64,000 nt of DNA, from contig NZ_CP151637.1 in the NCBI RefSeq assembly GCF_038397755.1, positions 2,108,001-2,172,000 of the forward strand, in the 5' to 3' direction. This document shows, one piece after another, positions 23,922 to 57,285 of the stretch. Origin of the DNA: Microbacterium sp. LWH7-1.2. Lineage in GTDB: Bacteria; Actinomycetota; Actinomycetes; Actinomycetales; Microbacteriaceae. Both the position numbers and the translations under genes were made by a program. Within the stretch, counting starts at the first letter, position 1. Every line of letters starts with the position of its first letter. The notes under the pieces were generated by a model. That model worked only from the letters and a program-made list of their open reading frames with translations. It ran no database searches and was not told the origin of the DNA.

Positions 23922-23935
23922 CCCGGAGGCACGTC

Positions 23936-24817: not shown

Positions 24818-24917
24818 CTTCTCACCCGCTCCCCCGCTTCCCGCTCGTTGAGCGAGCGAGGAACGAGCGAGTCGAAACGCCCCGGGCTGGCGAGTAACGC
24901 CGGCGCCCGCATTGCCC

Positions 24918-25133: not shown

Positions 25134-25149
25134 CAGGCCCAGACCGAGT

Positions 25150-25609: not shown

Positions 25610-25732
25610 ACTGGGTACGGCGCTTTCCCTCCCCCAAGGGCTCGAGTACCAATTTCGTCTATTCGGCCGTAACAACTAACTGATACCCTGCCCATGGTGG
25701 CCGGGTAATCCACCAAAAAGCGAGAAGGCACT

Positions 25733-27451
25733 GTGTCGTCGAATCCCCACATCGACGCGCCAACGGAGTCGCCAGCCCATCCCCAGGCACGGGCAGCCGC
25801 TCCTTCGGCGAGCCGTCCGTCCGCCCCGGGCTCGTCGTCCGCGGCATCTCCCTCGGATTCGTCGTCCCCGACGTCTCCCTCGGACCCGGCGCCGACCTCC
25901 CTCTCGGTCGTTGAGCGAGCGAGGAACGAGCGAGTCGAAACGCCCGACCTGTCCCCGCTCGTTGAGCGAGCGAGGAACGAGCGAGTCGAAACGCCCCGGG
26001 CCTCCGAGCAACACCGCCCCTGGCGCCGCGACTACGCCGCCCGCCTCTGGATGAGCGACGCCTTCGTCCTCATCTGGGCCGTCTACGGCACACAGCTGCT
26101 GTGGTTCGGCTGGGGCAATGCGCAAGTCGCCATCCGCGAAGACTCTCGCTTCAACGAACTCTCGTATTGGGGCTTCTCTGCGGTCGTGATCATCGCCTGG
26201 ATGTGGGCTCTGTCGCTCATCGACTCCCGCGACCACCGCATCATCGGTGCCGGCAACACGGAGTACGTGCGGGTCGCCCGTGCAAGCTTCACCCTCTTCG
26301 GCGCCATCGCGATCCTCGCCTTCCTGCTCCGCGTCGATGTCGCCCGCGGCTACCTCCTCATCGCGCTCCCGCTCGGCATCTTCGTCCTCCTGCTCGAGCG
26401 CTGGCTGTGGCGCCAGTGGCTCATCGCCGAGCGTTCGCTCGGGCGGTATTCGGCGAAGGTTCTCCTGGTGGGATCGGAGGAGTCCGTCGCCGCAATCGCC
26501 CGCGAGTTGCACCGTTCACCGACAGCCGGGTACCAAGTGGTCGGCGCCTGCGTCCCGTCAGGCAAGGTCGCGGACGTCATCGCCGGGACTTCCGTGCCCG
26601 TGATGGGCAGCGTCGACAACGTAGGACTCGCTATCGCAGCTACCGGTGCAGACACGGTCGCGGTGACGAGCACCGACGACTTGCCACCGATGAAGGTCAA
26701 GCAGATCTCGTGGGCGCTGGAAGCGGGCCACCAGCATCTCGTTCTCGCGCCGAGCATCGTCGACATTGCTGGCCCTCGCCTCCACACTCGCCCGGTCGCC
26801 GGTCTGCCCCTCATCCACGTCGAGACTCCGAAGTTCAGCCGCGGTCAACGCCTCGTGAAGCGTGCTGTCGACCTTGCGGCATGTCTGGTTGGGGTCGTAC
26901 TACTGAGCCCACTGCTGGCGTTCCTTGCCATCAGCGTCCGTCTCACAAGCCAGGGTCCGGTCCTCTTCCGTCAGACCCGCATCGGCCTGCGCGGCGACGA
27001 GTTCACGATGCTGAAGTTCCGTTCGATGGTCGTCAACGCGGAGGATCTGCTCGAGCAGCTTGCGAAGCAAGAGCGCGACTCCGGCAATGAGGTCCTCTTC
27101 AAGATGAAGAACGACCCCCGGGTCACACCCGTCGGACGCATCATGCGCAAGTTCAGCCTTGACGAGCTGCCGCAGCTCTTCAACGTCATCGGTGGATCGA
27201 TGTCCCTCGTGGGCCCGCGTCCGCCTCTGCCCACAGAAGTCGCGAAATATGCCGACCACGTGCACCGGCGCTTCCTGGTGAAGCCCGGCATCACCGGCCT
27301 GTGGCAGGTGAGCGGCCGCTCAAGCCTGTCGTGGGAGGACACTGTGCGACTCGACCTCTCGTACGTCGAAAACTGGTCGCTCGTCAGCGACTTCGCGATC
27401 ATCGCGAAGACCGCGAAGGCGGCCCTGGCCCCGGGAGAAACAGCATCATGA
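25733..27451 (+). CDS. Phosphoglycosyl transferase initiating polysaccharide synthesis, WbaP-like (first copy)
   Basis: A 572-residue protein starting with GTG after GAGAAGG. Residues 1-95 are a disordered Pro/Ser-rich extension that contains two in-frame DNA repeats read as VVERARNERVETP-like peptides (about residues 59-70 and 76-87). Then come about four membrane helices, a Rossmann-like CoA-binding-type domain (KVLLVGSEESV), a reentrant helix and the catalytic domain with FTMLKFRSMVV, FSLDELPQLFNV and SLVGPRPPLP. The enzyme moves a sugar-1-phosphate from a UDP-sugar to undecaprenyl phosphate. It is first in a tightly coupled operon. The sugar is not predictable. Confidence 0.95.
   Translation: MSSNPHIDAPTESPAHPQARAAAPSASRPSAPGSSSAASPSDSSSPTSPSDPAPTSLSVVERARNERVETPDLSPLVERARNERVETPRASEQHRPWRRDYAARLWMSDAFVLIWAVYGTQLLWFGWGNAQVAIREDSRFNELSYWGFSAVVIIAWMWALSLIDSRDHRIIGAGNTEYVRVARASFTLFGAIAILAFLLRVDVARGYLLIALPLGIFVLLLERWLWRQWLIAERSLGRYSAKVLLVGSEESVAAIARELHRSPTAGYQVVGACVPSGKVADVIAGTSVPVMGSVDNVGLAIAATGADTVAVTSTDDLPPMKVKQISWALEAGHQHLVLAPSIVDIAGPRLHTRPVAGLPLIHVETPKFSRGQRLVKRAVDLAACLVGVVLLSPLLAFLAISVRLTSQGPVLFRQTRIGLRGDEFTMLKFRSMVVNAEDLLEQLAKQERDSGNEVLFKMKNDPRVTPVGRIMRKFSLDELPQLFNVIGGSMSLVGPRPPLPTEVAKYADHVHRRFLVKPGITGLWQVSGRSSLSWEDTVRLDLSYVENWSLVSDFAIIAKTAKAALAPGETAS
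25909..25993 (+). repeat. Two type-B repeats inside the WbaP-like coding sequence
   Basis: Copies at 25909-25942 and 25960-25993 are identical to intergenic type-B repeats. They are read in the same open frame as in the Wzc-like gene, giving VVERARNERVETP and LVERARNERVETP in the N-terminal tail of the protein. Confidence 0.97.
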
Positions 27452-42793: not shown

Positions 42794-43530
42794 CGTTTCG
42801 ACTGCGGGCGCCAGAGCGCCCTCCGCTCAACGACCGGTTACCTCGACTCCCGTCGTTGAGCGAGCGAGGAACGAGCGAGTCGGAACGCGCCGTGCACTCC
42901 CGGACACCCGGGGCGTTTCGACTGCGGGCGCCAGAGCGCCCTCCGCTCAACGACCGGTTACCTCGACTCCGGTCGTTGAGCGAGCGAGGAACGAGCGAGT
43001 CGAAACGCGCCGTGCACTCCCGGACACCCTGGGCGTTTCGACTACGGGCGCCAGAGCGCCCTCCGCTCAACGACCGAGGACTCGGTCGTTGAGCGAGCGA
43101 GGAACGAGCGAGTCGGAACGCGCCCCTCCCGGACACCCGGGGCGTTTCGACTGCGGGCGCCAGAGCGCCCTCCGCTCAACGAGCGGTTACCTCGACTCCG
43201 GTCGTTGAGCGAGCGAGGAACGAGCGAGTCGAAACGCGCCATGCACTCCCGGAGACCCGGGGCGTTTCGACTACGGGCGCCAGAGCGCCCTCCGCTCAAC
43301 GACCGAGGACTCGGTCGTTGAGCGAGCGAGGAACGAGCGAGTCGGAACGCGCCCCTCCCGGACACCCGGGGCGTTTCGACTGCGGGCGCCAGAGCGCCCT
43401 CCGCTCAACGACCGGTTACCTCGACTCCGGTCGTTGAGCGAGCGAGGAACGAGCGAGTCGAAACGCGCCTGACCCGTCCGGAGACCCAGGGCGTTTCGAC
43501 TACGGGCGCCAGAGCGCCCTCCGCTCAACG
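42794..43530. repeat. Array of alternating type-A and type-B repeats (7 A, 6 B)
   Basis: Seven 39-bp type-A copies (first 42794-42832, last 43492-43530) alternate with six 34-bp type-B copies in inverted orientation (first 42854-42887). Both share the ends CGTTTCGACT and TCAACG. The A core GGGCGCCAGAGCGCCC is a hairpin. Unit spacing is 110-120 bp with conserved spacers such as GGTTACCTCGACTCC and GAGGACT. Several B copies read CGGAACG for CGAAACG. The array fills the whole gap between the flippase and the GIY-YIG gene and resembles BIME-type palindromic pairs. Confidence 0.97.
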
Positions 43531-43830
43531 AGCGTGGGGCGGCGCGGGGGGCTGCGAGCCGCGCTTGCTCCAGCCGATGACGGCGTCGATGCCTCCGGCG
43601 ATGAACGCGTCGCGCTTGGCGTGGCTCCACCCTTGAATCCGCTTCTCCCAGGCGAAGGCGTCGGCGATGCGCGCGTACTCCTCCGTCCATGCGAGCTCCA
43701 CTGGGAGCCGCCGTCGCGTGTATGCCGACCCCATGCCGGCGTTGTGCGCCTCAAGACGCCGGGTGAGGTTGATCGTGCTGCCGACGTAGAACGTGCCGTC
43801 GGCGCACCGCAGGATATAGACGAACGCCAT
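43525..43830 (-). CDS. Small GIY-YIG endonuclease-domain protein
   Basis: A 101-residue protein consisting only of a GIY-YIG domain. Motifs are FVYILRCADGTFYVGST (the V-Y-I and Y-V-G strands), an arginine in NLTRRLEAHNAG, and a catalytic glutamate in AFAWEKRIQGW. It is UvrC/YhbQ-like in length and lacks other domains. Repeat arrays lie on both sides. The stop codon TGA at 43525-43527 is inside the last type-A repeat of the array (CGT-TGA-GCG), so the repeat defines the C-terminus. The family acts on DNA; a link to spread of the repeats is only a suggestion. Confidence 0.9.
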   Translation of the reverse strand: MAFVYILRCADGTFYVGSTINLTRRLEAHNAGMGSAYTRRRLPVELAWTEEYARIADAFAWEKRIQGWSHAKRDAFIAGGIDAVIGWSKRGSQPPAPPHAR

Positions 43831-44243
43831 GGGGTCAGCCTGCTCGCGGTGGACGCGCCATGGGCCGGTCCCGGGTGCTGCGTGGAGAGTGCGCCCGCGG
43901 GGGTTCCTGTGGAGGAGTAGTGCGTGGCCGGACACTCCCGAAGACCCGAGGCGTTTCGACTGCGGGCGCCAGAGCGCCCTCCGCTCAACGAGCGGGGGTA
44001 GGGGCGCCGGCCCTTGTCTCGGTCGTTGAGCGAGCGAGGAACGAGCGAGTCGAAACGCGCCGCACCTGCGAGCAACACCGCGCCGCAGCATCCGTCACCC
44101 ACGACGCGTTTCGACTGCGGGCGCCAGAGCGCCCTCCGCTCAACGAGCGAGGAATCGGTCGTTGAGCGAGCAGACCCGACGCGTTTCGACTTCGGGCGCC
44201 AGAGCGCCCTCCGCTCAACGAGCGGGGGTCTTGGCACCGCCTC
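43831..44243. repeat. Second repeat cluster, between the GIY-YIG and S8 protease genes
   Basis: Type-A copies lie at 43952-43990, 44107-44145 and 44182-44220. One full type-B copy is at 44024-44057, and a truncated one (first 12 bases) at about 44160-44171, cut in the middle of the core. No gene is seen in the gap; 43831-43950 should hold the GIY-YIG promoter. Confidence 0.93.
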
Positions 44244-45938
44244 TCAGTTGCGGAGGGTGAGCGAGATCGTCGGGCTGTAGCCGGTGTTGCCGGCGGCATC
44301 CACCGCCCGCGCCTGCACGGGGTAGGTCGCGTTCGGGTAGCTGCGCGACGACAGCGTGCCAGCCCACGAGCCGTCGGACTGCTTCGCCAGCGTGCCGAGC
44401 TTCGTCGCTCCCGACCACAGCGTCACCCCGGTGACCGCCACGTTGTCGGCGGCCGTCACCCGCACCGTCACGGTGCCCGACACCGTCGATCCCGAGGCCG
44501 GAGCGGTGATCGTCGCGGTCGGCGCCTGCGTATCCGGCGTCGGAGTCGGGGTCGGCGTGGGAGTCGGGGTCGGCGTCGGAGTGGGCGTCGGGGTCGGAGT
44601 GGGCGTCGGGGTCGGGGTCGGCGTCGGGGTGGTGCCCGTCGGCACGGTCGACGCGAGCCAGCCCGCGTACCGACCCGAGATCGGACTGAGCGGGTCGCCC
44701 GCGAAGCGCTTGCCGCGCGTCGTGGCCGCCGCCTGCGCCTGGGCCTCGAGGATCTGGAAGACCTCGCGCGGAGTGCGCCCCTCGCACGAGCCCTCGGCGA
44801 AGCAGGCGAGCACGACGCCCGACATCACCGCTGCAGACATGCTCGTGCCCGACGCGATGTATCCGTACCGGTTGCCCTTCTTGGTCGTGTACGGGCACGT
44901 GCCCGGCGCCGCGATCGTGTGCGCGCGGTCGGCCGCGCTCACCGCCCAGTTGCTCTTCGGGTTGATCGTGTCGTCGGCAGGGGCCGACGACTCGGTGCAG
45001 GGCTTCGTTCCGCGCGACCCGGGCTTGCCGTCGTAGTCGGCCACGTTGGTGGCCGTGATCACCTCGTCGAAGTTGCCCGGCGAGTACTGCGCCAGGTCAC
45101 GCGTCGAGTTGCCCGCGGCCGCGACCACGACGACGCCGTCCTCGACGAGCGCGCAGATCGCCTGGTGGATGACGTCGCCGTTCGCGTACCCGCAGTTGCC
45201 GTCGTCGGCCTGGCCGAACTGCATGCTCATGTTCATCACGGCGATGTCGTAGCGCTCGTGGTTCTCCATGACCCACTCGAGGCCGCACATGAGTGTGGCG
45301 AGCGTGCCCTGCATCTTGCTGTCGAGCACGCGCACCGACGTGATCGGCGCGCCCGGCGCGATGCCGACGAGGCCCACGGTGTTGTTGATCGCCGCGGCCG
45401 CACCGGCGACGCCCGTGCCGTGGCCGTTCGCGTCGGTGCCGTCGCCGCTGCCGAAGCAGTTGATCTGCCGGGCCACGTTGAGGTCGGTGTGCACGCTCAC
45501 GCCCGAGTCGATGATCGCGAGACCGGGTCCGTCCCACGCGCCCGCCGAGGTGGCGCTCGTCGGGGGCAGATCGGCCTCCACCGTGCCCACGGCGGGCGGC
45601 ACCGTCTGCGCGGCACCCGTTACGACCTTGTTCGAAGAGATGCCGCGCACCGTCGACGACACCCGCAGCAGGGCGACCTCGTCGGCCGTCAGATACCCGG
45701 TGAACCCCTTCACCACGCTGTCGTAGACGGCGTCGGGCTCTGCCGCGATCCCAGAGAGCGCAGCATCCAATCCCTCCGCCGACCGGAAGCTGACGGTGTA
45801 CACGCCCGGCTCGTCGCCCGCGGCGAACGAGGCGGTGGCGATTCCGCCGCCCACGAGCGACGCAACGACCGCGGTCCCCACCGCGAGTCCCGCGATGCGC
45901 ATCGCCCTAGCCGACTCTCTCCTCCTGAGCTTCCCCAT
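44244..45938 (-). CDS. Secreted S8 (subtilisin-like) serine protease with Ig-like C-terminus
   Basis: The ATG at 45938 follows GGGAGAG and gives 564 residues. Residues 1-41 form a signal peptide ([19 protein letters not shown]). An I9-like propeptide spans about 45-105 ([15 protein letters not shown]). The catalytic triad is D144 (IIDSGVSVH), H173 (GHGTGVAGA) and S366 (GTSMSAAV), with oxyanion N277 (AAGNS). A linker of about 35 residues of PT repeats leads to a beta-rich domain ([21 protein letters not shown]) of the Big/Ig type. It sits at the end of a glycan gene run; target proteins are unknown. Confidence 0.94.
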
Positions 45939-46482
45939 GGCTCTCTCCCGCTTCCTGACCCGAGGGCCTCTCGCCGATGACCCGCGCCGGAACCCCTCCG
46001 ACGATCGAGAACGCCGGAACATCCTTCGTCACCACGGCCCCGGCCGCGACCACGGCGCCCTCGCCGATCGTCACGCCCGCCAGAACCACCACGTTCGCCC
46101 CGAGCCAGGAACCCGCGCCGATCACCACATCGCGCTCGATCTTGGGCTGGTCCATGATCGGGACCGGGCCCATCTCGACGCCGTAGTTCGACGCCGTCAC
46201 CATCACGTGCGGCGCGAACAGGCACTTCTCGCCGATCTCGATGCGACCGGTCTCGTTGCCCGCCCAGATGAGGCTGAACTCACCGATGTGGGTGCCCGCG
46301 CCGATCGAGATGCGCTCGCCGTTGCGGAACGACACGTTCGGTGCCATCGAGACGTCCGGCCCCATCTGGATCAGCGGCACCTGCCGCACGAACGAGTAGC
46401 CGTGGAAGTGGGCAAGACGCAGCCCGTGCAGCAGCGTGCGGGGGTCGAGCACCGACCCGAGCGCGCCCCGGAGGCGGCTCAT
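45907..46482 (-). CDS. Hexapeptide-repeat acetyltransferase, WbbJ-like (first copy)
   Basis: The ATG at 46482 overlaps the stop of the preceding gene (ATGA) and gives 191 residues. Left-handed beta-helix hexapeptides are evident ([49 protein letters not shown]), with the active-site-type ASNYG loop replacing the usual H-S-H. The last 32 bases overlap the start of the S8 protease gene. Such enzymes O-acetylate sugars in the cytoplasm before flipping. It is the third of a four-gene coupled run (GT4, GT2, acyltransferase, acetyltransferase). Confidence 0.88.
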
Positions 46483-47822
46483 CGCGCTGCCCCCGCAGCA
46501 TCCGTCCCCACCGGAACGGGTGCCGGCGCAAGCAGCTCGCGGTAGACCGCCATGAGCGCGGGAAGGTCGACCGACGAGCGCGCGGTCACGCTGATCACGA
46601 GCTCGCGGCGGTACGAGCAGGCCAGGCACGCGACCTCGTCGCGCGGGTCGCCCGCCGGCCACCCGGTGACCGTCTCGACCGGAGCCGTGCCGAAGAACCG
46701 CTCGTCGCGGCCCCACGTCACCGAGGTGGCGTAGCCCACCCAGTCCTCGGCGCCCTCGACCACCGAGCCGCCGGACTCGACCGCCGCCTGAACCTGGGCC
46801 CGCACGCTCGGCACGATCTCTTCCAGCGGAGCGGATGCTGCGACCGAGACCTTCACGACGCTGATGTCGTTGCGCACCCCGCCGTCACCGGCCCCGCGTC
46901 GCGAGATCGGCACGAGGATCGACAGCGTCTCGGCGTCGGGGCGCTGACGCGCCATCGCGATCAGAGTGGCGGCCGTGACCAGGTCGTTGACGGTACCGCC
47001 GAGCTTGTACGCGCGGCGCGTGGCGGCGGCGAGGTCTGCGACCTCGTACGCCGATCGGCGACCCTCCCGCACGTCGGCGAGGAGACCGGTGCGCGCGATG
47101 CGCGCGTTCTTGACCGGGCGCAGCATGCGCCCGCCCCAGCGGCGCAGCCGCATGCGGAACGACTTGCGCCAGTACGCCCGCCACGCCTGCCGCAGACCCG
47201 GATTGCGCTCGCGCCACTGCGCGAACGCGAGGGCGAGCACCTCGAAGCCGTTGCGCGGCGCGATGCCGAGCTCGGCGTACTCCGCCTCGCCCGGCTCCGG
47301 CGGTTCGGGCGTGGGCGCGGTGCCGGCGATCACGTCGCCGATCCGCAGGCCGTACATCGCGTCGCCCACCACGTGGTGGTAGCGCATGACGATCGCCACG
47401 CGCCCGGAGTCGAGCTCGACGAACTCGAAGTCCCACAGCGGCCGCGACGGGTCCATCGTGGGGCTCAGGCGCCCCGTGAACCGCTCGACTCGGGTCGGGT
47501 CGTCGGGCTCGACGTCGTCGGCGAACCGCACGTGGTAGTCGAGGTCGAGGCTCGTCACGGGCACCCACGCCGGCGTCGTCAGGCGCAGCGGCGTAGACAC
47601 CAGCCGCTGACGCATCGCCGGCGCGAACCAGCTGAGGCGCTCGACGCGCCGGCGGATCGCATCGCGGTCGAGGGTGCCGTCGGGCCCGCGCAGCGGCGCG
47701 CCGTCGACGATCAACGTGCCGGCGGCGTGCATCGCGGCGAACGTGACCGCGTTCGACACGTACTTCTCGTCGAGCGAGCTGATCAGCTGCGCCCGGCGGG
47801 CGAGTTCGGGGTGCGCGCTCAT
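46479..47822 (-). CDS. WS/DGAT-type acyltransferase (HHxxxD superfamily)
   Basis: A 447-residue protein starting at the ATG at 47822, which overlaps the GT2 stop by one base. The catalytic HHxxxD is [11 protein letters not shown] (H149, H150, D154), and the upstream [13 protein letters not shown] is the PLWD block of wax-ester synthase/DGAT proteins. C-terminal [14 protein letters not shown] and [19 protein letters not shown] also fit. Family members transfer fatty acyl groups from CoA to alcohols. Inside a coupled glycosyltransferase operon the acceptor may be a sugar or glycolipid; this is inference. A storage-lipid role is less likely given the context. Confidence 0.82.
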
Positions 47823-48745
47823 TACTCTCCTCCGTGCGTCGCGACGCCGAGGGTGATCGGCGCCGGCGGGTCGTCGTCGACGAAGACGCGCCCGTCGAGT
47901 GTGAAGCGCACGGCGGTGAAGAACCCGCCGAGGAATCCGCGGAACAGCGCGAGGTCGGCATCCCGGCGCCGATGCTCGCGCCGGTTGTGCACCGCGCGCG
48001 ACAGGGTGCGCTTCGCGACCACCGCGAACAGGCGCACCCCCACGCGGACCCGCAGCCGCACCCACTTCGCGGTGAGCGCGCCGAGGCCCAGCCCGTAGCC
48101 GTGGTGCAGCTGCGTGTAGGCGTCGTCGGCGCGCGTGTGCACGTGGTGCACGACACAGGTCGGGTCGTAGACGATGTGCGCGCCGCTGTCGAGCACGCGG
48201 CAGAACATGTCGAGGTCTTCGGCGCCGGCCAGGCGCCGCCCCGCACCCAGCACCGGGTCGAAGCCGCCGAGCACGACGAGCTGCTCGCGCCGGAACGCCA
48301 TGATCGCGCCGTGCCCGGCGTCGATGCCTTCGATCGTGCGGGTGAACCGCCGGGGCGGCGGCGCCTGCTGCGTGCCGACCAGGGTGTGGTCCAGCATCCG
48401 TCCCGTCACGGCGCCGACGGCCGGATCGTCGAAGTCGGCGAGGATCGGCGCCATCCAGCCCTCGACCGCCGCGCAGTCGTCGTCGGTGAACACCACGATC
48501 GGCCGCCGGCTCGTCTCGAGGGCGAGGTTGCGGGCGATCGAGAGCCCCTTGATGTCGCTGCGCACGTAGTCGACACTCGCGGTCTCGGCGACCTCCCGGG
48601 TCGCCGACGTCGTCGACGCCGAGTCGACGACGAGGATCTGCACGCCCGGCGGCGTCACCGCCGTGAACGAGGCGAGCGCCGCGGCGAGCATCTCGGGCCG
48701 CTCGCGCGTGCAGATGGCGAGGGTCACGTCCTCAGGCCGCGGCAT
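47822..48745 (-). CDS. GT2-family glycosyltransferase
   Basis: A 307-residue cytoplasmic enzyme. It opens with VTLAICTRERPEMLAAALASF, has the DXD-type VVFTDDDCAAVEGW for metal and nucleotide-sugar binding, and GAEDLDMFCRVLDSG as the acceptor-site ED motif. A C-terminal basic helix region (RVRVGVRLFAVVAKRTLSRAVHNRREHRRR) may dock it to the membrane. The gene overlaps the GT4 gene upstream by 14 bases and the acyltransferase downstream by one. Donor sugar unknown. Confidence 0.92.
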   Translation of the reverse strand: MPRPEDVTLAICTRERPEMLAAALASFTAVTPPGVQILVVDSASTTSATREVAETASVDYVRSDIKGLSIARNLALETSRRPIVVFTDDDCAAVEGWMAPILADFDDPAVGAVTGRMLDHTLVGTQQAPPPRRFTRTIEGIDAGHGAIMAFRREQLVVLGGFDPVLGAGRRLAGAEDLDMFCRVLDSGAHIVYDPTCVVHHVHTRADDAYTQLHHGYGLGLGALTAKWVRLRVRVGVRLFAVVAKRTLSRAVHNRREHRRRDADLALFRGFLGGFFTAVRFTLDGRVFVDDDPPAPITLGVATHGGE

Positions 48746-49910
48746 CCGTCGTTCCCCTCACCAGGCGCGCCGCCTCGCGGTACGCCGCGAGCGTCGCCTG
48801 GGTCGCCGCGGCCCAGCTGAGCTGGTCAGCCCGTGCCATCGCGGCGCTCGACATGCCGGCGAGCACCTCCGGGCGTTCGGTCAGCAGGTCGAGCTGCGCC
48901 GTCAGCACCTCGACGTCGCCGACCTCGTGCGTCATCCCGGTGACGCCCTCGTCGATCACCGCGCCCGCGGCGACGGAGACGAGCGGGACGCACCCGGCCA
49001 CCTGCGCCTCGTATGTCACGAGGGCACTGCCCTCCTCGATGGTCGGGAGCAGCATCACATCGGCCGAGGCCAGCACGCGCATCGGCTCGGACGTGACGCC
49101 CCGCACGTCGACGCTCGGGTGCGCGAGCAGCGGTGCCAGATGAGCGGCGTAGTCGTCGTCGAGCCGGCCGTAGACGAGGAACCGCCCGTCGGCGGCGGCC
49201 TTCGACGCCGTCCACGCCTGCAGCGCCGTGTGCAGACCCTTGCGCGGGGTGCCCCGGCCGAGGAACACGGCGGTGAGGCGCCCGTCGCCGGCGCGCGCGG
49301 GCGGCGTGGTCACCGTGCACCCGTAGCGATGCCGGAGCAGCCGGTCGTCGTCGAACCCGCGAGCGAGGAACGTGCCGGCGACCGCCTCGCTCGGCACGAG
49401 CAGCCCGGCTGCGGCCATGTACTCGCTCTCTTCGGTGGCAAGGCGTCGCGGGTCGGCGGTGTGGCTCTCGCCGCGACGCGGCTCGAGACCGAGGGACGCG
49501 TACTCGCGCGCCACGACCTCGTACGCGTGCGCGGTATGGGTGTTGGGCACCTCGCGCACGCCGGGGATGCCGAGCCGCCGCGCCGCCTGCAGCGTGCGGA
49601 CTGACGCGAGCGGCCACGCGTGCACGACATCGCTGGTGTCTGCGCTCAGCAGCCGCTCGACGAGACCCGCTGCGACGGCGTCGTGATAGCGCAGGGCGCG
49701 GTCGCGCCCGAGGAGCCGATGCGGGACGCGCCGGCCGCGGAGGGCGAGGGTCGTCCGCACGGACGCCGCCCCCTCGACCGGCTTGGCCATGGAGGCCGCG
49801 ACGATGTGCACGTCGACGCCGGCGCGAACGAGTTCGTTCGCCTGGTTCCACGCGGTCCAGCCGATGCCCGGGGCTCCGAGCGCATGCGGGAAGCTGTACA
49901 GGACTGCCAG
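48732..49910 (-). CDS. GT4-family glycosyltransferase with uncertain non-standard start
   Basis: The GT-B core is plain: LTAVFLGRGTPRKGLHTALQAW after the N-terminal domain, then EEGSALVTYEAQVAGCVPLVS for donor binding. The first ATG/GTG in frame is at 49811, but family-like sequence continues upstream (LAVLYSFPHALGAPGIGWTA), and the frame is closed by a TGA near 49972 with no ATG, GTG or TTG between. A CTG at 49910 lies six bases after GGAGGT and would start the protein exactly where homologs are expected to start (392 residues). I therefore give 49910 as the likely start. A sequencing or true frameshift is the alternative. Confidence 0.78.
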   Translation of the reverse strand: MAVLYSFPHALGAPGIGWTAWNQANELVRAGVDVHIVAASMAKPVEGAASVRTTLALRGRRVPHRLLGRDRALRYHDAVAAGLVERLLSADTSDVVHAWPLASVRTLQAARRLGIPGVREVPNTHTAHAYEVVAREYASLGLEPRRGESHTADPRRLATEESEYMAAAGLLVPSEAVAGTFLARGFDDDRLLRHRYGCTVTTPPARAGDGRLTAVFLGRGTPRKGLHTALQAWTASKAAADGRFLVYGRLDDDYAAHLAPLLAHPSVDVRGVTSEPMRVLASADVMLLPTIEEGSALVTYEAQVAGCVPLVSVAAGAVIDEGVTGMTHEVGDVEVLTAQLDLLTERPEVLAGMSSAAMARADQLSWAAATQATLAAYREAARLVRGTTDAAA

Positions 49911-50204
49911 AACGCCACCTCCCCCAGGACGAGGCCCGCCTCCATAGGAGCCGTGCCGGGCTCTCGTTCATCACTCTGTGGGAGCCCTCCGGACGGGCAC
50001 AACCCGGGCCGTCGAATGTCGCCCAGTCTTTACAACCGTGCAACAAAGACACAGGGCGCCGTTAACAATCCGGCGCGACCATGGCAGAGCAAGTCTTGTC
50101 GCAACACCTGAGTTTCTGGGATCGGTGTGCGACGCGGACGGCCCGATGGCGTGCTGGGGGTTTCGGGCGGTCTGCGTCCGGAAGCACACGGAGAGAGGTG
50201 TCTG
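49911..50204. other. Divergent promoter region between GT4 and Wzz-like genes
   Basis: No gene is supported in these 294 bases. TTTACA (near 50030) and GTTAACA (near 50071) are AT-rich islands that may belong to promoters for the plus-strand run starting at 50205. I see no convincing -35/-10 pair. Confidence 0.35.
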
Positions 50205-51098
50205 ATGGAGACTCCGAAGTACCTGCAAGTGCTGTGGAACTACAAGTGGGTGCTGGTTCTCGGCGCCCTCGTCGCCGCGGTGGCCGCGTTCTTCGCCGGC
50301 TTCGCGATCGTCAACGGTCAGGTCGTGTCGAGAGCTCAGCAGACCTGGTCGGCCGCGACCACGATGCTGGTCACGAGTCCGGCCGACCGGCTGTATCAAG
50401 CCGAGGTGCCGGGCGTGCCGATCCAACAAGGCACCTCCGAGCCGCAGGTCATCGACCTGGCCTCGACGGCGCTCGTGTACGCGTACATCCTGTCGGGGGA
50501 CATGATCCAGGACGCCGTCGAGGCCGAGATCGGCGCACTCGACGACGAGACCGAATCGATCACCGCGCTGCGCCGTACGACGCAGCCGACAGGCGACGAG
50601 CGCTTCCCGGGCCGCCTCAGCCTGCCGGTGCTCGAGGCCGTCGGCACCGCCGAGACCGCGGACCGCGCCGAAGAGATCTCGCGCGCCGCGGCCGCCGCCT
50701 TCACGACCTACGTCGTCGCCCAGCAGGAAGAGCAGCAGCTCGCGCCCGAGCTGCGCGTGCTGCTCGAGCCGATCGGCGCGAGCCCCGCGGTGGAGGGCGA
50801 CTCCTCCAACCCCGCGATCCCGGTCGTCGTCACCTTCGTGGGCGTCTTCCTCGCGTTCGTCGTGCTCGTGTTCATCATCGCCGGCCTGCGCTCCCGGTCC
50901 GCGAAGCGCAAGGCCGCTCGCGCCGAGAAGGCTGCCGCAGCGGCCGAGGAGCCGGTGGATGAGACGGATGCTGCGCCCGTAACTCCTGCGAAGAGCACCG
51001 ACGACGTGGCGCCCGAGGCCGAAGCCGGCGAGCTGGTCGGCGCAGGGCCGCCGTCGCGCCGATCCGGCCGAGCCTCCCGCGAGGACGAGACCGCGTAG
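50205..51098 (+). CDS. Wzz-like chain-length determinant without kinase domain
   Basis: The ATG at 50205 follows AGAGAGG and gives 297 residues. Two membrane helices (about residues 14-38 and 206-228) flank an outside domain of about 165 residues that includes SAATTMLVTSPADRLYQ, the layout of Wzz proteins. The C-terminal tail of about 65 residues is Ala/Glu-rich and has no Walker motifs or tyrosine cluster. It probably regulates the chain length of the polymer made by the Wzy-like protein 30 bases downstream. It is the second Wzz-type protein of the window. Confidence 0.85.
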   Translation: METPKYLQVLWNYKWVLVLGALVAAVAAFFAGFAIVNGQVVSRAQQTWSAATTMLVTSPADRLYQAEVPGVPIQQGTSEPQVIDLASTALVYAYILSGDMIQDAVEAEIGALDDETESITALRRTTQPTGDERFPGRLSLPVLEAVGTAETADRAEEISRAAAAAFTTYVVAQQEEQQLAPELRVLLEPIGASPAVEGDSSNPAIPVVVTFVGVFLAFVVLVFIIAGLRSRSAKRKAARAEKAAAAAEEPVDETDAAPVTPAKSTDDVAPEAEAGELVGAGPPSRRSGRASREDETA

Positions 51099-51128
51099 GC
51101 GACGACGGCCCCTCCTCGGAGCACCGAC

Positions 51129-52712
51129 ATGTCGACCCGCACCGCGCACGCACCCGCGGACGAGACCGACGCGCCACCCGCCGAGATCGCGCCCGGCGAC
51201 GGAGCACGGCCCCACTGGGCCACCGTCGCCGGGATCGCGATCCTCTTCGCCGCGATCGTGATCGCCGGGGTAATCTTCCTCCCGCCGATCGCCATGGGCG
51301 CGGCCCTCCTCGGCATCACGCTCATCGTGCTGCTGCGCCGCATCCTGTTCACCTGGCCGGCGCTGCTGTTCCTGCTCGCGGCGACCGTCATGTTCATCCC
51401 GGCCCGGCGCTATGCGCTGCCCATCCCGCTCCCGTTCGCGCTCGAGGCGTACCGCCTCATGATCTTCATCGCGATCTTCGCGCTCGGGCTCGCATTCCTG
51501 TTCGACCGGTCCCGCCGGTGGCGGCCCGTCGCGTTCGGCTGGCCGATCGGCATCTTCCTGGCCACCCTGCTGGTGTCGTTCATCGTGAACGGCATGCGCC
51601 TCGCGAACCTGGGACTGGCGAACACCTCGCTGTCGGGCTTCTTCCAGCTCGGTGTCCTGCTGTCGGTGTTCTATTCGGTGCGCCAGCTGCTCACGAGCGA
51701 GCGCATGGTGCAGGGCTTCGTGATGGTGCTCTCGTGGATGGCCGTGATCGTCGCCTTCTTCGCCGTCCTCGAGCGCGTGGCGCGCACCAACGTGTTCCTC
51801 ATGCTCGCGAACTTCCTGCCGCTGATCGTGCTTCGCGACGACGGCGGCGACGCCACGCGGGCCGGTGTGAATCGCGCATACGGATCGGCGCAGCATCCGA
51901 TCGCTCTCGCTGTCATGCTCTGCATGTTCCTGCCGATCCTCATCTACCTGGCGAAGTACGCGATCTGGCCGCGCAACATCTGGAACCGGCGCATCGCCTA
52001 CGGGATCGGCACGTTCATCGTGTTCGGCGGCATCATCGCCGCCATCTCGCGCACGGCGGTGGTCGTCATGGGCGTGATGTTCCTGATCGCACTGGTGCTG
52101 CGGCCCAAGGTCGCCCTGCTGCTGCTGGCGTTTGCGGTGCCGGGGCTGCTGCTCGCGATGTTCGTCGTGCCGGCGCAGGTCGAGTCCATGCTGCTGTCGT
52201 TCCTGGACGTCGACACGCTCATCGCGTCGCAGTACACGTCGGCGGGCATGACGGGCGCCGGGCGCCTCGCCGACCTGGAACCCGCCTTCGTCGAAGTGCG
52301 GCAGTACCCGTTCTTCGGGCAGGGGTACGGCAGCCGGATCGTCGTCGGCGACGACGCGAACTCGTTCATCCTCGACAACCAGGTGCTCGGCATCCTGATG
52401 GAGGCGGGCGCGCTCGGCGTCATCGGCTATGCGGTGTTCATGCTCGCGCCCGTCGTCATGCTCATCGTCTACGCCTTGCGCTGGGCGGCCGAGCCGCGTC
52501 ACGCTCTGCTCGCGTTCGCCGTCGCGGTCTCGATCGCCGGGTACAGCGCGGCGCTCTTCTTCTTCGACGCTTTCGGGTTCTTCCAGTCGTTCCTCGTGCA
52601 CATGATGCTGCTTGCGGTCGCGGCGTGGGTGTACACCGAGGGCTCCCGCAAGGTGTCCGCGCCGAAGGCGGCGTGGACCCCGGAATCGGCGAGCGCGGGG
52701 GTCGTGCAGTGA
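51129..52712 (+). CDS. O-antigen ligase / Wzy-like polymerase (second copy)
   Basis: A 527-residue membrane protein with about twelve helices. The conserved Wzy_C pattern is present: GSAQHPIALAVMLCMFLPIL, then a helix ending in AAISRTAVVVMGVM (SRTA motif), then a large outside loop with FFGQGYGSRIVVGDDANSFILDNQ, in which the FGxGxG and N-x-x-L/D-N-Q elements are typical. It would join glycan units at the outer face. It lies directly after the Wzz-like gene and before a glycosyltransferase, so this run probably forms a second assembly system. Confidence 0.92.
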   Translation: MSTRTAHAPADETDAPPAEIAPGDGARPHWATVAGIAILFAAIVIAGVIFLPPIAMGAALLGITLIVLLRRILFTWPALLFLLAATVMFIPARRYALPIPLPFALEAYRLMIFIAIFALGLAFLFDRSRRWRPVAFGWPIGIFLATLLVSFIVNGMRLANLGLANTSLSGFFQLGVLLSVFYSVRQLLTSERMVQGFVMVLSWMAVIVAFFAVLERVARTNVFLMLANFLPLIVLRDDGGDATRAGVNRAYGSAQHPIALAVMLCMFLPILIYLAKYAIWPRNIWNRRIAYGIGTFIVFGGIIAAISRTAVVVMGVMFLIALVLRPKVALLLLAFAVPGLLLAMFVVPAQVESMLLSFLDVDTLIASQYTSAGMTGAGRLADLEPAFVEVRQYPFFGQGYGSRIVVGDDANSFILDNQVLGILMEAGALGVIGYAVFMLAPVVMLIVYALRWAAEPRHALLAFAVAVSIAGYSAALFFFDAFGFFQSFLVHMMLLAVAAWVYTEGSRKVSAPKAAWTPESASAGVVQ

Positions 52713-52734
52713 GCGCGCGGGCGCAGTTCCCGCT

Positions 52735-52832
52735 CGTTGAGCGGAGCGCGCTCTGGCGCGCGCAGTCGAAACGCCCCGGGTCTACGAGATCGCCGGCGCG
52801 TTTCGACTCACTCGTTCCTCGCTCGCTCAACG
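52735..52832. repeat. Inverted pair of type-A and type-B repeats
   Basis: A type-A copy at 52735-52773, with core GCGCGCTCTGGCGCGC differing from the array copies but still self-complementary, faces a type-B copy at 52799-52832. The core bases changed on both stem sides, so the hairpin is maintained by compensating changes. Confidence 0.93.
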
Positions 52833-52860
52833 AGCGAGAGTACGAGCGGGGGGACCGGCG

Positions 52861-53718
52861 ATGAGCGCGCGGCTGAGCGTGGTCATCCCGGCGCACGACG
52901 AAGGCGCGGTGATCGACCGCGTGCTGGGCGCGCTGTGCGCATCCAGCAGGCGGGACGAGTTCGAGATCGTCGTCGCGGCCAACGGCTGCACCGACGACAC
53001 CGTCTCGCGGGCGCGTTCGTACGACGGTGTGCACGTGGTGGAGACACCTCGCGCGTCGAAGGTCGCGGCTCTGCAGGCCGGCGACGACGCGGCATCCGTC
53101 TTCCCACGCGCGTACATCGACGCCGATGTGCTGATCGACCCCGATGCGCTCGTGGCCCTCGCCGATGCGCTCGACGAGCCTGGCGTCGAGGTCGCATCGC
53201 CCCGGCTGCACGTCGACACGTCCGGGGCGTCGTGGCTGGTGCGCCAGCACTACCGCATCTGGGAGCTCAGCGACTACCGCCGCCGCGGCCACATCGGGTC
53301 GGGGGTGTATGCGATGACGAGGGCGGGCCGCGCGCGGTTCGACGCGTGGCCCGATGTCATCGCCGACGACCGCTTCGTGCAGCAGCTGTTCGCGCCCGCC
53401 GAGCGCGCGACGCTCGCCGACCACTCGTTCAGCGTGCGCTCCGCCGCCGACATGCGCGCGCACCTGCGCCGCTCCGTGCGCATCGCGCGCGGCAACCGCG
53501 AACTGCCCGACCTCGTGCAGCACGAGGATGCCGCGCGGCCGACGGCAGGTACTCGCGGCGGGCTGGCGAGGCGCGTCGCGGGGCGACCGGGCCTGTGGGT
53601 GCCCTTCGCCGTCTACTGCGTGAGCTGGACACTTCCGAACGTGCTCGCCCGCCGCGACATCGCCCGCGCGCGCACATCGACCTGGAACCGCGACGACACG
53701 AGCCGGGTGGTGGCATGA
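52861..53718 (+). CDS. GT2-family glycosyltransferase
   Basis: A 285-residue enzyme with the standard start RLSVVIPAHDEGAVIDRVLGAL and the metal-binding DXD in YIDADVLIDPDALV. HIGSGVYAMTRAGRARF and VIADDRFVQQLF supply the acceptor-side aspartates. A hydrophobic C-terminal segment (LWVPFAVYCVSWTLPNVLA) could hold it to the membrane. Its stop overlaps the next ATG (ATGA). The layout resembles dolichol-phosphate-mannose-synthase-like proteins without the multi-helix tail. Donor unknown. Confidence 0.92.
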   Translation: MSARLSVVIPAHDEGAVIDRVLGALCASSRRDEFEIVVAANGCTDDTVSRARSYDGVHVVETPRASKVAALQAGDDAASVFPRAYIDADVLIDPDALVALADALDEPGVEVASPRLHVDTSGASWLVRQHYRIWELSDYRRRGHIGSGVYAMTRAGRARFDAWPDVIADDRFVQQLFAPAERATLADHSFSVRSAADMRAHLRRSVRIARGNRELPDLVQHEDAARPTAGTRGGLARRVAGRPGLWVPFAVYCVSWTLPNVLARRDIARARTSTWNRDDTSRVVA

Positions 53719-54581
53719 CAAGAAGACGCACAGCGACGATCGTGACGATCGGACTCCTCCTGGGGGTTCTCACCGCCTGCGCGGCGGCACCCCTGCCGGA
53801 GCCGGTCGACCTCGCGGAGCTCGAGACGAGTCCGGGGATCGGGGACGTCACGACGATCGGCGCCCTCGGAGACTCGATGACCCTCGGGGTGAACGCCTGC
53901 GCCGAGCCCGGCCGTTGCATGGCGGCGAGCTGGGCGACCGGAGACGACCCCGCCGTCGGCTCGATCGCGATGCGCGTCGGCGCGGCGTCGGGCGCCGTTC
54001 CCGAAACGGTCAACTCCGCGAAGGACGGCGGCACCGTCGCCGACGCGGTCGCCCGCGTCGACGAGGTGATCGCCGCCCGGCCTCAGCTCGTGGTCGTGCT
54101 GCTCGGCGGCAACGACGTGTGCGATGCCGACGTCGACGGCATGACGAGCGTCGACGACTTCCGCGCGTCGTACACGGCGCTGCTGGCCGCGCTGAGCGAG
54201 GGCCTCCCCGACGCCCGCGTGCTCGCGCTGTCGATCCCCGACCTGTACCACCTGTGGGAGGTCGGCCGCGACGACGAGGGCACCCGGCAGATCTGGGACA
54301 GCAGCCCGTCGTGCAGCAACCTGCTGGGCGACGCCGCCGCGACCGACGCGGCCGCCACAGAGCGGCGCGACGCCGTCGCCGCCCGCACGGTCGAGCTCAA
54401 CGCGGTCATCGCCGAGGTCTGCGCGGCCGACAGCGCCTGCACCTCGGACGGCGGCGCCGTCTTCGACTACGAATTCTCGCCCGCGGAGATCTCGGCGATC
54501 GACCACTTCCACCCGTCGGTGGCGGGCCAGCAGGTCATCGCCGAGATCGCCTGGAACGCCCTCGTGGAGGCCGCACCATGA
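53715..54581 (+). CDS. SGNH/GDSL hydrolase lipoprotein
   Basis: The ATG at 53715 overlaps the previous stop, giving 288 residues. Lipobox LTAC ends at C22, so the mature protein is anchored outside. SGNH blocks are in order: GALGDSMTLG (nucleophile S54), a glycine in block II, LLGGNDVC (block III Asn) and DHFHPS (block V Asp/His). Family members remove acyl or acetyl groups from esters. In this operon it may trim or edit O-acyl groups on the polysaccharide, opposite to the acyltransferases of the region; that is inference. Confidence 0.92.
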   Translation: MTRRRTATIVTIGLLLGVLTACAAAPLPEPVDLAELETSPGIGDVTTIGALGDSMTLGVNACAEPGRCMAASWATGDDPAVGSIAMRVGAASGAVPETVNSAKDGGTVADAVARVDEVIAARPQLVVVLLGGNDVCDADVDGMTSVDDFRASYTALLAALSEGLPDARVLALSIPDLYHLWEVGRDDEGTRQIWDSSPSCSNLLGDAAATDAAATERRDAVAARTVELNAVIAEVCAADSACTSDGGAVFDYEFSPAEISAIDHFHPSVAGQQVIAEIAWNALVEAAP

Positions 54582-55522
54582 CCACGCTCCTCGTCGCGAT
54601 CTCGGGCGGCCACCTCACGCAACTCACGATGCTCGCGCCGCGCGTCGCCGACGGCGACGACGTCGTGTGGCTCACCGACGACACCGCGCAGAGCCGGTCG
54701 CTGCTCGAGGGACAGACCGTCTACCATGTGCCCACCCGGCCGCCGCGCGACTACGCCGGCGTCATGCGCGACACGGGCATCGCCCTGCAGGCGATGAAGC
54801 AGCACAGGGTCGACCGCGTCATCAGCACCGGCGCCCAGATCGCCCTGTCGGCGCTCGTGCCCGCGTCGGCGCGACGCCTGCCGTTCACCTACATCGAGAG
54901 CGCCACACGTGTCACCGGCATCTCGGCGACCGGCAAGGTGATGGAACGGGTGCCGTGGGTCGACCGGTACGTGCAGTACCCGCACGCGGTCAACTCCCGC
55001 TGGCGCTACGCGCTGTCGGTGTTCGACGGCTTCCGCGTCGAACCCGTCGACGACCCCGCGCCGATCCGCCGGGCAGTGGTCACGGTCGGAGGCAACGGCG
55101 ACTTCGGGTACCGCCGGCTCGTCGACGGCGCCCGCGCCGCGCTCGACGACCTGGACGGCGACGTCGAGACCCTGTGGCAGGTGGGTGCGACCGACGTGTC
55201 GGACCTTCCCCTCGACGCCGTCGCGTCGCTGCCGTCGAGCGAGCTCGGCGCGGCGCTGCGGCAGGCGGACGTCGTGATCGGACACGCCGGCACGGGCACC
55301 GCGCTGGCCGCGCTCTCCGCCGGGAAGGTGCCGGTGCTCGCCCCGCGCTCGGTCGAACACGGCGAGCACGTCGACGCCCACCAGCAGGATCTCGCGCGGT
55401 TCCTCGGGGACCGGGGGCTCGCCGTGGTGTGCGATGCGGACGCGATCCGCCCGTCCACCCTCGACACCGCGCGGCGCTGGCGCGCCGTCCGATCCGAAGA
55501 CCTCGCACCCGTGCCGCTCTGA
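54578..55522 (+). CDS. Glycosyltransferase of the MurG/Alg13-Alg14-like type
   Basis: Translation is coupled to the preceding gene (ATGA overlap); 314 residues. The N-terminal half, MTTLLVAISGGHLTQLTML, and STGAQIALSALVPA with TYIESATR resemble Alg14/PssD-type acceptor domains. The C-terminal half has ADVVIGHAGTGTALAALSAGKVPVL, the UDP-sugar binding motif of GT28/Alg13. A fused form of these two subunits, often split in other bacteria, is therefore present. These enzymes add a second sugar on a lipid-linked monosaccharide. Confidence 0.88.
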   Translation: MTTLLVAISGGHLTQLTMLAPRVADGDDVVWLTDDTAQSRSLLEGQTVYHVPTRPPRDYAGVMRDTGIALQAMKQHRVDRVISTGAQIALSALVPASARRLPFTYIESATRVTGISATGKVMERVPWVDRYVQYPHAVNSRWRYALSVFDGFRVEPVDDPAPIRRAVVTVGGNGDFGYRRLVDGARAALDDLDGDVETLWQVGATDVSDLPLDAVASLPSSELGAALRQADVVIGHAGTGTALAALSAGKVPVLAPRSVEHGEHVDAHQQDLARFLGDRGLAVVCDADAIRPSTLDTARRWRAVRSEDLAPVPL

Positions 55523-55565
55523 GCCCCGCATCGCGCCGCGACAGCATCCTTGAGGAGGGCAGCAC

Positions 55566-56549
55566 GTGCAGACCCCCGACGTCACCGTCGTCATCGTCAA
55601 CTACGAGACCCGCGACGACACCATCGCCTGCGTCGCGTCGGTGCTCGAGCACGCCGGTCGCCTCGACGAGCAGGTGGTCGTGGTCGACAACGGCTCGCGT
55701 GACGGCAGCGCGGCCGCGCTGCGCGCGGCGCACCCCGGGATCGACGTGATCGAGGCCGGAGAGAACCTCGGCTTCGCCCGCGCTGTCAACCGCGGCGTCT
55801 CCGTCGCCCGCGGAGAGTTCGTGCTGCTGCTCAACCCCGACGCGGTCATGCTCGAGAACTCGCTCCCCCGGCTGATCGCCTTCGCCCGCGAGAACCCGCA
55901 GTACGGCATCGTCGGCGGCCGCACACTGCGTGAGGATCTCACACTGGAGCCGTCGTCGTGCTGGGGTGCCCCGACGCTCTGGTCGCTCACCATGTACGCG
56001 ACGATGCTGTCGACCGTCTTCCGGCGCTCTCGCCTGTTCGACCCGGAGTCACTGGGCTCGTGGCAGCGCGACACGATCCGCGAGGTGCCGATCATCACCG
56101 GATGCCTGCTGCTCATCCGCCGCGACGACTTCGCAGCACTGGGCGGCATGGACGAGGACTTCTTCCTCTATGGCGAGGACGCCGAGTTCAGCATGCGGGC
56201 GGCCGCCCGGGGTATGGCCCGGGTCGTGTATCCGCCGGCAGCGATCATCCACACGGTGGGCGGGTCGTCAGCGGGCTCCTCGAAGGGCTCCATGGTGCTG
56301 GCGGGCAAGGTCACGTACCTGGAGAAGACCTGGTCACCCCGGCGGGCCGCGATGGGCGTGCTGCTGCTGAAGGCCGGCGTCGCCGTGCGCGCGGGGCTCG
56401 AGGCCCTGACACGGCGGCCGAACCGGCCGTGGTCGACGGTCTGGCGCCGGCGCGCCGACTGGGGCTCGGGCTACCCGCACGCCGAGGCGGCGCTGTTCGG
56501 CCGCCCGCTGCCGGAGCCCGCAGCCGCCAGTTCTCCCCCCGCGCGTTGA
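55566..56549 (+). CDS. GT2-family glycosyltransferase, WbbL/rhamnosyltransferase-like
   Basis: A 327-residue enzyme starting with GTG after TTGAGGAGG. It has DVTVVIVNYETRDDTIACVAS, VVVDNGSRDGSA, LNPDAVM (DXD equivalent) and MDEDFFLYGEDAEFSMRAA (catalytic ED motif), as in rhamnosyltransferases of polysaccharide clusters. The last codons are CGT-TGA, formed by the first bases of a degenerate type-A repeat (56544 onward), so the stop and the final arginine come from the repeat. Rhamnose as donor is a guess from subfamily likeness; no rhamnose synthesis genes are seen here. Confidence 0.92.
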   Translation: MQTPDVTVVIVNYETRDDTIACVASVLEHAGRLDEQVVVVDNGSRDGSAAALRAAHPGIDVIEAGENLGFARAVNRGVSVARGEFVLLLNPDAVMLENSLPRLIAFARENPQYGIVGGRTLREDLTLEPSSCWGAPTLWSLTMYATMLSTVFRRSRLFDPESLGSWQRDTIREVPIITGCLLLIRRDDFAALGGMDEDFFLYGEDAEFSMRAAARGMARVVYPPAAIIHTVGGSSAGSSKGSMVLAGKVTYLEKTWSPRRAAMGVLLLKAGVAVRAGLEALTRRPNRPWSTVWRRRADWGSGYPHAEAALFGRPLPEPAAASSPPAR

Positions 56550-57285
56550 GCGGGGGCTCTCGGGCGCCCGCATTCGCTCGGGCCGGAGTCTCCCCCGGGT
56601 GTGGCGCGTTTCGACTCGCTCGTACCTCGCTCGCTCAACGACCGGAGGCCGGAGTACCGCTCGTTGAGCGGAGGGCGCTCCAGCGCCCGCAGTCGAAACG
56701 CCCCGGGGTGTGCGCCGGGTGCGGCGCGTTTCGACTCGCTCGTACCTCGCTCGCTCAACGACCGAGTCGCATACGGGAGCGTCGGGGCCGGGGTGTGCGC
56801 CGGGCGCGGCGCGTTTCGACTCGCTCGTACCTCGCTCGCTCAACGACCGAGTCGCATACGGGAGCGTCGGGGCCGGGGTGTGCGCCGGGCGCGGCGCGTT
56901 TCGACTCGCTCGTACCTCGCTCGCTCAACGACCGGCAAAAGGAGAGCGCACTCCCCTACCCCGCTCGTTGAGCGGAGGGCGCTCTAGCGCCCGCAGTCGA
57001 AACGCCCCCGGGCTTGCGCCGGGCGCGGCGCGTTTCGACTCGCTCGTACCTCGCTCGCTCAACGACCGAGTCGCATACGGGAGCGTCGGGGCCGGGGTGT
57101 GCGCCGGGCGCGGCGCGTTCGACTCGCTCGTACCTCGCTCGCTCAACGACCGGCAAAGGGAAAGGGACCGCCTTACCCCGCGCTCGTGCTCGGGCGGGCG
57201 TCTCTCCCGGGTGCGGCGCGTTTCGACTCGCTCGTACCTCGCTCGCTCAACGACCGAGTTGTACCGGTCGTTGAGCGGAGGGCGG
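56544..57285. repeat. Second repeat array (7 type-B, 2 full and 2 damaged type-A)
   Basis: Type-B copies (inverted) start at 56607, 56727, 56811, 56897, 57031, 57115 and 57220; all carry GTACCTC cores in place of GTTCCTC. Type-A copies are at 56660-56698 and 56964-57004, with damaged ones at 56544 and 57267. An 84-86-bp higher unit, beginning GAGTCGCATACGGGAGCGTC and ending with a B copy, occurs at about 56764, 56848 and 57068. The B copy at 57115 has lost one T of the TTT. The array fills the gap between two glycosyltransferase genes, with no gene inside. Confidence 0.96.

Follow-up and report, generated by a model that had tools for sequence, protein, structure and literature searches.

A UPF0213-like GIY-YIG nuclease gene is flanked by REP-like repeats with exchangeable cores in Microbacterium and recurrently in two phyla

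Repetitive extragenic palindromic (REP) repeats are widespread in bacteria. The stretch analysed here (the window) comprises 64,000 nucleotides, bases 2108001-2172000 of the 4.45-Mb genome of Microbacterium sp. LWH7-1.2. It contains two types of short repeat, A and B, which share their ends and differ in their cores, and a gene for a small UPF0213-like GIY-YIG nuclease located between two clusters of these repeats. We propose, with a probability of about 0.9, that the repeats and the nucleases of this UPF0213 clade form one co-inherited system resembling the REPtrons, in which a transposase gene is accompanied by its own REP repeats, but built on an unrelated enzyme. What is new here is the pairing of this nuclease with such repeats in a genome that has no match to the Y1_Tnp transposase family, and the recurrence of the pairing in two phyla. 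The positions of the features are given in Table 1.

The nuclease protein matches PF01541 (59 bits), and its closest PDB match is 1zg2, the UPF0213 protein BH0048 (E 1.7e-12). Four residues (Y, Y, R and E), whose role we take to be catalytic, are invariant across 10 aligned homologues, in keeping with a UPF0213-like member of PF01541. Like the UPF0213 proteins 1zg2 and 1ywl, it is a small single-domain PF01541 protein; the UPF0213 GIY-YIG proteins as a whole presumably correspond to COG2827. The gene is physically joined to the repeats, its stop codon being the TGA within CGTTGAGCG of the adjoining A copy. Three PF01541 matches were found in the genome, only the gene in the array matches the nuclease protein itself, and the two other loci have no GTTGAG...CGAAAC repeat within 1.5 kb. 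The Y1_Tnp family (PF01797) of REP transposases gave no match in this genome and matches in 5 of 14 control genomes. The nuclease gene also adjoins a subtilase gene with immunoglobulin-like domains, in which 18-bp tandem repeats (window 44518-44649) encode a PT-rich linker.

The association was examined in 299 Microbacteriaceae genomes by a protein search, which found the gene in 75 of them (own genome included) and gave 99 loci outside the own genome, inspected with up to 6 kb per side. As a motif we used S4-GAG-N(2-44)-TCGA-S4', where S4' is the reverse complement of S4, counted up to 400 bp from the gene. Of the 98 loci whose flanks were complete, 78 had the motif and 68 had it on both sides, compared with 10-17 and 0-2, respectively, of 92-95 at six shifted control positions. 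Its density was 6.9 per kb within 250 bp of the gene and 0.24-0.33 per kb beyond 1 kb. A motif-free test, in which the left flank was compared with the right by BLAST (E below 1e-3), was positive at 80/99 loci versus 2/186 control positions. Among the 20 loci lacking the motif, 12 have diverged forms of it such as GGTCGAGGAG...TCACGAGACC, three (L074, L164, L166) have flank matches that are weak or of another kind, and no repeat was seen in the flanks of L138, L161, L165, L167 and L168. The sequence GTTTCACGTGAAAC, presumably a ParB-type site, is repeated near the nuclease genes of L045, L069 and L074 and was set aside.

The same pairing was found far from this family. A scan of genomes of named species with a Methylobacterium-led alignment yielded 80 best loci, picked by similarity and not at random; judged by title they are mostly Alphaproteobacteria, joined by two named Actinobacteria (Janibacter and Gordonia), one member of the Ignavibacteriaceae and a handful of unplaced bins. 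Once L272, whose flank is too short, had been left out, the motif stood within 400 bp at 73/79 loci (controls 6/71 and 9/67), and the motif-free test was positive at 65/79 (controls 1/71 and 0/67). In both sets the flanking repeats follow the plan of those in the window with a different sequence, frequent elements beside the mostly alphaproteobacterial nucleases being TCCTGAGG...CCTCGAAGGA and CCCTGAGCTTGTCGAAGGG. When 211 proteins were placed in a tree, 187 rows (158 flanked) formed a clade apart from 24 relatives (3 flanked), with a Shimodaira-Hasegawa-like approximate likelihood ratio test (SH-aLRT) value of 99; the tree has few columns and its inner forks are weak. It omits L172 (the same gene as L115), L176, L187, L188 and L201, all without the motif except L172. 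More distant homologues from various phyla (L174-L198) carry a single motif in 3 of 25 cases and none in 22, and therefore our claim is limited to this one clade, whose repeat-flanked members set it apart from the other UPF0213 relatives. Two plasmid loci, L199 and L200 (Methylobacterium and Sphingomonas parapaucimobilis), carry repeats, and six others (L201-L206) have no motif. In L201, from Sphingomonas paeninsulae, the motif-less GIY-YIG relative is annotated as a hypothetical protein and lies between rnc and era.

Copy number follows the nuclease. With the family-wide pattern GTTGAGN{8,38}TCGAAACS in the 299 genomes, the median was 13 copies in the 75 genomes with the gene versus 2 in the 224 without, and at least 20 copies were present in 31/75 versus 9/224 (genus-stratified permutation, p 4e-4). 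In 25 genera containing both kinds of genome, copies were higher with the gene in 19, lower in 4 and equal in 2. Within the own genus (149 genomes; pattern GTTGAGCGN{6,36}GWCGAAACG), the median number of own-type copies was 59 when the nuclease had at least 60% identity (n=33), 2 at 50-60% (n=15), 1 below 50% (n=15) and 0 without the gene (n=86); genomes with at least 20 copies numbered 25/33 (own included), 4/15, 2/15 and 9/86 in the same order. The Spearman coefficient among the 63 genomes with a nuclease match was 0.77. Among the 20 closest relatives (own included), ranked by the DNA on the hemQ side of a spacer between two genes whose translations we take to be HemQ and HemY, the 10 with a cognate gene hold 11-306 copies and the 10 without hold 0-48 (p 4e-4). 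The latter comprise 5 with no gene and 5 with a divergent or broken one, and the comparison with the 5 lacking the gene alone gives p 0.01.

The locus is found at different places among relatives. Its position is shared by the own genome and G737, and by G784 on the one side covered by the contig. The right flank of G789 has 94% identity; on the left lies a flippase gene at 82%, next to part of a copy at 93%, indicating that the region was rearranged in this genome. A full B copy and an A remnant of G789 enclose a PNPOx-type gene (L327, 9127-9543) instead of the nuclease. In G734, G716, G785 and G258, within 2-6 kb per side, the match to the window is the nuclease gene alone (about 265-290 bp); a 2-kb neighbouring stretch is common to G215 and G734. 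Together, the PNPOx-type gene of G789 and the differing loci of the relatives indicate that the gene between the repeats varies and that the nuclease occupies different places.

Concerning the repeats themselves, an earlier note, made from the letters of this DNA alone, had described two shared ends and two cores, all of which were found in the window. We counted the 13 full A copies that it gave (3 on the forward strand, 10 on the reverse) and 22 full B copies (15 and 7); its figure of about 23 is reached with an extra B copy at about 57115-57148 that is missing one T. The note had placed the family at 42794-57285, and eight B copies fall outside that range, at 23681-25993. Of its two alternating arrays, the one at 42794-43530 is strict, reverse A followed by forward B, with every A and the B to its right forming an inverted pair whose tags meet head to head, inward, whereas 56607-57252 reads B A B B B A B B B. 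The A copy at 52735 has, as claimed, an altered core with compensating changes on both stem arms, and this core recurs in the genome at least at 10204, 1190239 and 2872922. Three B copies terminate in AGTCGGAACG. Occurrences of the two ends spaced 4-40 bp apart number 35 in the window and 0 in each of 20 order-2 Markov resamples; across the genome the pattern GTTGAGCGN{6,36}TCGAAACG gives 140 matches (overlaps included) and its reversed control none. Cores were classified for the 37 rows upstream of the window among the matches listed: AGCGVAGCGAG in 16, A in 8, AGCYTGCGAG-like in 6, B in 5 and composite in 2. The genome thus holds at least four cores on the shared ends, and the picture of two cores is right for the window but not for the genome. 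The core GCGAGGAACGAGC was also found with different ends in other genera (L061, L054; genomes G278 and G140), which means that cores too are common to several families. In the mostly alphaproteobacterial set, the elements of L256, L261, L267 and L279 are nested, the core of TCCTGAG...TCGAAGGA being a complete smaller element such as GGCTGAGCTTGTCGAAGCC; these four loci generalise the idea of swapped cores put forward in the note.

A and B are REP-like elements of the kind that also forms bacterial interspersed mosaic elements (BIMEs): imperfect palindromes of 20-40 bp that are repeated many times, chiefly between genes, and are grouped into inverted dimers and arrays. Their ends are shared, their cores vary, and a 5' tag makes them asymmetric. 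In large part they are arranged as inverted pairs with unlike cores. The plan is a tag on one side, a closing stem, a near-invariant GAG...TCGA and an exchangeable core. The tag stands only on the CGTTGAG side, and in 35 window copies it reads CGGT (21), CGCT (13) or CCGT (1). The closing stem varies by genome yet stays complementary, the hairpin form giving 543 hits near the gene versus 19 for a reverse-only and 41 for an identical control; a complement-only control gave 141, and for stems such as TCCT it is indistinguishable from the hairpin form. In this count the strand was picked by stop codons only, so that a few loci at contig ends may shift, with symmetric flanks hardly affected. In the mostly alphaproteobacterial set, NTCA with a first base other than A precedes the stem of 142/185 elements near the gene versus 16/53 far from it, and complementarity extends to the next pair of bases beyond the four-base stem in 99/185. 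At position -3, G is better conserved in Actinobacteria (245/262, orientation less strictly checked). Far hits are no clean control for tags because dispersed members of the same families will be among them. According to a DNA energy model, three inverted pairs would each form one long hairpin as a single strand, from which the A core branches off as a side arm: 42914-43007, which reaches -37.5 kcal/mol as single-stranded DNA (z -7.46), 43952-44057 (z -5.28) and 52735-52832 (z -4.81). A alone folds weakly (z -1.42). A fold of single B with tandem G.A pairs is possible. No known RNA family matched the window in an Rfam search at the gathering threshold.

How does this system relate to known ones? 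REPINs, as reportedly described by Bertels and Rainey in 2011, are inverted REP pairs that replicate as a unit, with a co-resident enzyme gene; the window system differs from them in its two unlike cores and its GIY-YIG partner. The GTAG group of REP/BIME repeats and their REP-associated tyrosine transposases (RAYTs), together known as REPtrons (Di Nocera et al. 2013, PMC3733652), is alike in its short tagged imperfect palindromes, many copies, inverted dimers and arrays, in the single enzyme gene with its own repeats on either side and in repeat classes that differ between genomes. REPtrons differ in their enzyme and tag, a Y1/HUH transposase with GTAG there and a GIY-YIG nuclease with CGGT or CGCT here. 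The earlier note saw in its two modules a difference from REP/BIME elements, which does not hold: the A(-)/B(+) inverted pairs correspond to the REP "heterodimers" with unlike stems or loops already described (PMC3733652), so mixed-core pairs are not new, and the genome has at least four cores. A second likeness concerns the CGTC superfamily, in which CGTC may be changed to TGTC or CCTC, an A starts the stem and dimers are often made of unlike units (PMC3733652). Just before the stem, CCTCA, CGTCA or TGTCA is found in 132/185 elements beside the nucleases of the mostly alphaproteobacterial set. These tags fit the published description (PMC3733652), the identity being deduced from the wording of that text, and the window elements differ in having no CGTC, TGTC or CCTC tag. 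In the 2013 classification, CGTC repeats are said to have no dedicated transposase, only the GTAG group having a partner enzyme, and future work on the CGTC group is called for (PMC3733652). Among the open-licence PMC articles listed, covered by title and the opening of the abstract and without preprints, none connects REP repeats with a GIY-YIG or UPF0213 gene, and the main text of a 2025 REP survey (PMC12306157) does not contain the words GIY, RAYT or transposase.

The earlier note further suggested that A and B are one family whose ends are recognised by some enzyme. Association supports this in part, with the nuclease gene in the array, flanked homologues in two phyla and copy number tracking the cognate nuclease; that enzyme would be the candidate for recognising and mobilising the repeats. 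The nuclease is the leading suspect for copying and spreading the repeats because they closely surround its gene in two major bacterial groups. We lean slightly towards the view that the nuclease mobilises them, on the grounds of the association, the copy-number correlation and the differing places of the gene. From these observations and the structure of the elements we infer cutting, structure recognition, specificity and copying, in the following order. An element or pair would become single-stranded, as on the lagging strand, or be extruded as a cruciform; the cognate nuclease would recognise the tag and the bulged stem and cut; and repair or re-joining of the cut DNA would copy the element to new sites and reshuffle arrays, which may arise by repeated events or by unequal exchange between units. 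The nuclease gene would travel with its own flanking elements. The broadest form of the proposal stands just short of an even chance in our estimate: the UPF0213-like clade would be the dedicated mobiliser of a second REP superfamily, uniting the alphaproteobacterial CGTC repeats with the actinobacterial tag-GAG...TCGA elements, each nuclease being specific for its class and copying structured repeats, whether single strands or cruciforms, through a mechanism unrelated to that of HUH enzymes. As for class specificity, a shared repeat class goes with slightly greater protein similarity across genera (0.589 vs 0.556, permutation p 0.002). The class also agrees between a protein and its nearest match in another genus in 15/79 cases vs 7.5 expected, a modest effect.

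Several observations weigh against a mobilising nuclease. The motif-free test fails at 19/99 Microbacteriaceae loci and at 14/79 of the mostly alphaproteobacterial ones, and species relatedness is only partly controlled in the copy-number comparisons. Nine own-genus genomes without the gene hold 27-53 copies; G772 has the gene (63%) yet no copy; G820 holds 175 copies with a 47% nuclease; and the nuclease genes of G784 and G702 contain in-frame stops, yet these genomes hold 290 and 59 copies. Thirteen genomes have at least two flanked genes, and 0 of their 19 within-genome pairs share a class, compared with 10% between genomes; two of the 19 differ by one inner base only, and the count is no strong evidence on specificity because about 2 same-class pairs are expected by chance. 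The tag CGNT (orientation checked) is present in 133/266 actinobacterial elements near the gene versus 80/236 far from it, a modest difference. A simple hairpin for single B is not supported by the energy model, its fold (z 0.90) being no better than shuffles, and B alone is hence a poor palindrome. Neither the hemQ-hemY spacer nor the kinase linker offered a clean empty site or a target duplication of the sort that, with terminal inverted repeats, marks MITEs and insertion sequences. The spacer (10204-10326 in the own genome, L009) differs widely among the relatives examined, and a duplication is unreadable there because it is too different even in a 95% relative. In the kinase gene, the repeat insert is also present in G789, where a further, truncated unit separates the two copies, and the linkers of G813, G737 and G747 do not align.

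The direction of cause is a further difficulty, since the same map would result if a homing nuclease had landed in repeats already present. This main rival, which we consider unlikely, sees the nuclease as a free-standing homing endonuclease that prefers pre-existing REP-like repeats of its own class, the repeats spreading by other means. It predicts the same co-location of gene and repeats, and it accommodates both the PNPOx-type gene of G789, which shows that other genes sit between repeats too, and the genomes rich in repeats without the gene. It leaves the spread of the repeats to another agent, whereas a search of the own genome for the Y1 transposase family gave no match, and it does not predict that close relatives without the cognate gene have far fewer copies. 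An improbable alternative is that the repeats are selected RNA or DNA regulatory structures (terminators, stabilisers of mRNA 3' ends or protein-binding sites) and the nuclease a repair enzyme that removes cruciforms. The GIY-YIG fold is indeed common to structure-specific nucleases, and three groups of repeats (42794-44220, 52735-52832 and 56607-57284) are found downstream of polysaccharide-cluster genes; but a removing enzyme predicts fewer copies where it is present and more were observed, one gene reads through two copies in frame, and the hemQ-hemY spacer varies widely among relatives, although that of G785 has an A-like copy in common with the own genome. That these are ordinary REP/BIME elements mobilised by a RAYT (a Y1 HUH transposase), with the nuclease as a chance neighbour, fits their size, inverted dimers, arrays and mostly intergenic placement and is nevertheless largely refuted, RAYT mobilisation being rejected for this genome, which has no PF01797 match, the tag not being GTAG, and a chance neighbour not accounting for 80/99 and 65/79 flanked loci.

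Table 1. Repeat copies and the nuclease gene in the window (window coordinates).
Feature	Position	Strand	Remarks
UPF0213-like GIY-YIG nuclease gene, 101 aa	43525..43830	-	between the two repeat clusters
Alternating array, A members	42794, 42914, 43034, 43143, 43263, 43372, 43492	-	array 42794..43530
Alternating array, B members	42854, 42974, 43087, 43203, 43316, 43432	+	array 42794..43530
Second cluster, other side of nuclease gene	43952..44220		A- 43952, B+ 44024, A- 44107, truncated B+ 44160, A- 44182
Inverted pair, tags outward, between two genes	52735..52832		A+ 52735-52773 (compensated core), B- 52799-52832
Cluster 56607..57284, B members	56607, 56727, 56812, 56897, 57031, ~57115 (one base short), 57219	-	
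Cluster 56607..57284, A members	56662, 56966; truncated A at 57269	+	
Two in-frame B copies, 3' part of Wzz/tyrosine-kinase-like gene 22248-23921	23681..23771	+	translated VVERARNERVETP
Single intergenic B copy	24846..24879	+	
Three B copies, direct repeat, intergenic	25221..25352 (25221, 25270, 25319)	+	
Two in-frame B copies near 5' end of bacterial sugar transferase open reading frame (ORF) 25733-27451	25909..25993	+	

Some copies of B lie within reading frames (Table 1). The A unit and the B unit are each stop-free in 5 of 6 frames. Rickettsial palindromic elements (RPEs) are repeat units inserted in frame within coding genes. They differ from the present case, which amounts to one clear gene, in its linker region, and one ORF, that of the sugar transferase, whose start codon is uncertain, so that its B copies may sit upstream of the gene. 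RPE-6 and RPE-4 have been equated with CGTC repeats (PMC3733652). Elsewhere in the window, at 12244-12703, GGGCGC recurs every 57 bp (12244, 12301, 12358 and onwards), suggesting a tandem repeat.

The tie between a conserved small nuclease and REP-like repeats in two phyla makes the question of the partner enzyme of such repeats a testable one. If the proposed role is correct, tiny elements of DNA would have a second, unrelated means of spreading through bacterial chromosomes, and this would point to a function for a family whose members are named in database records only as "GIY-YIG nuclease family protein".

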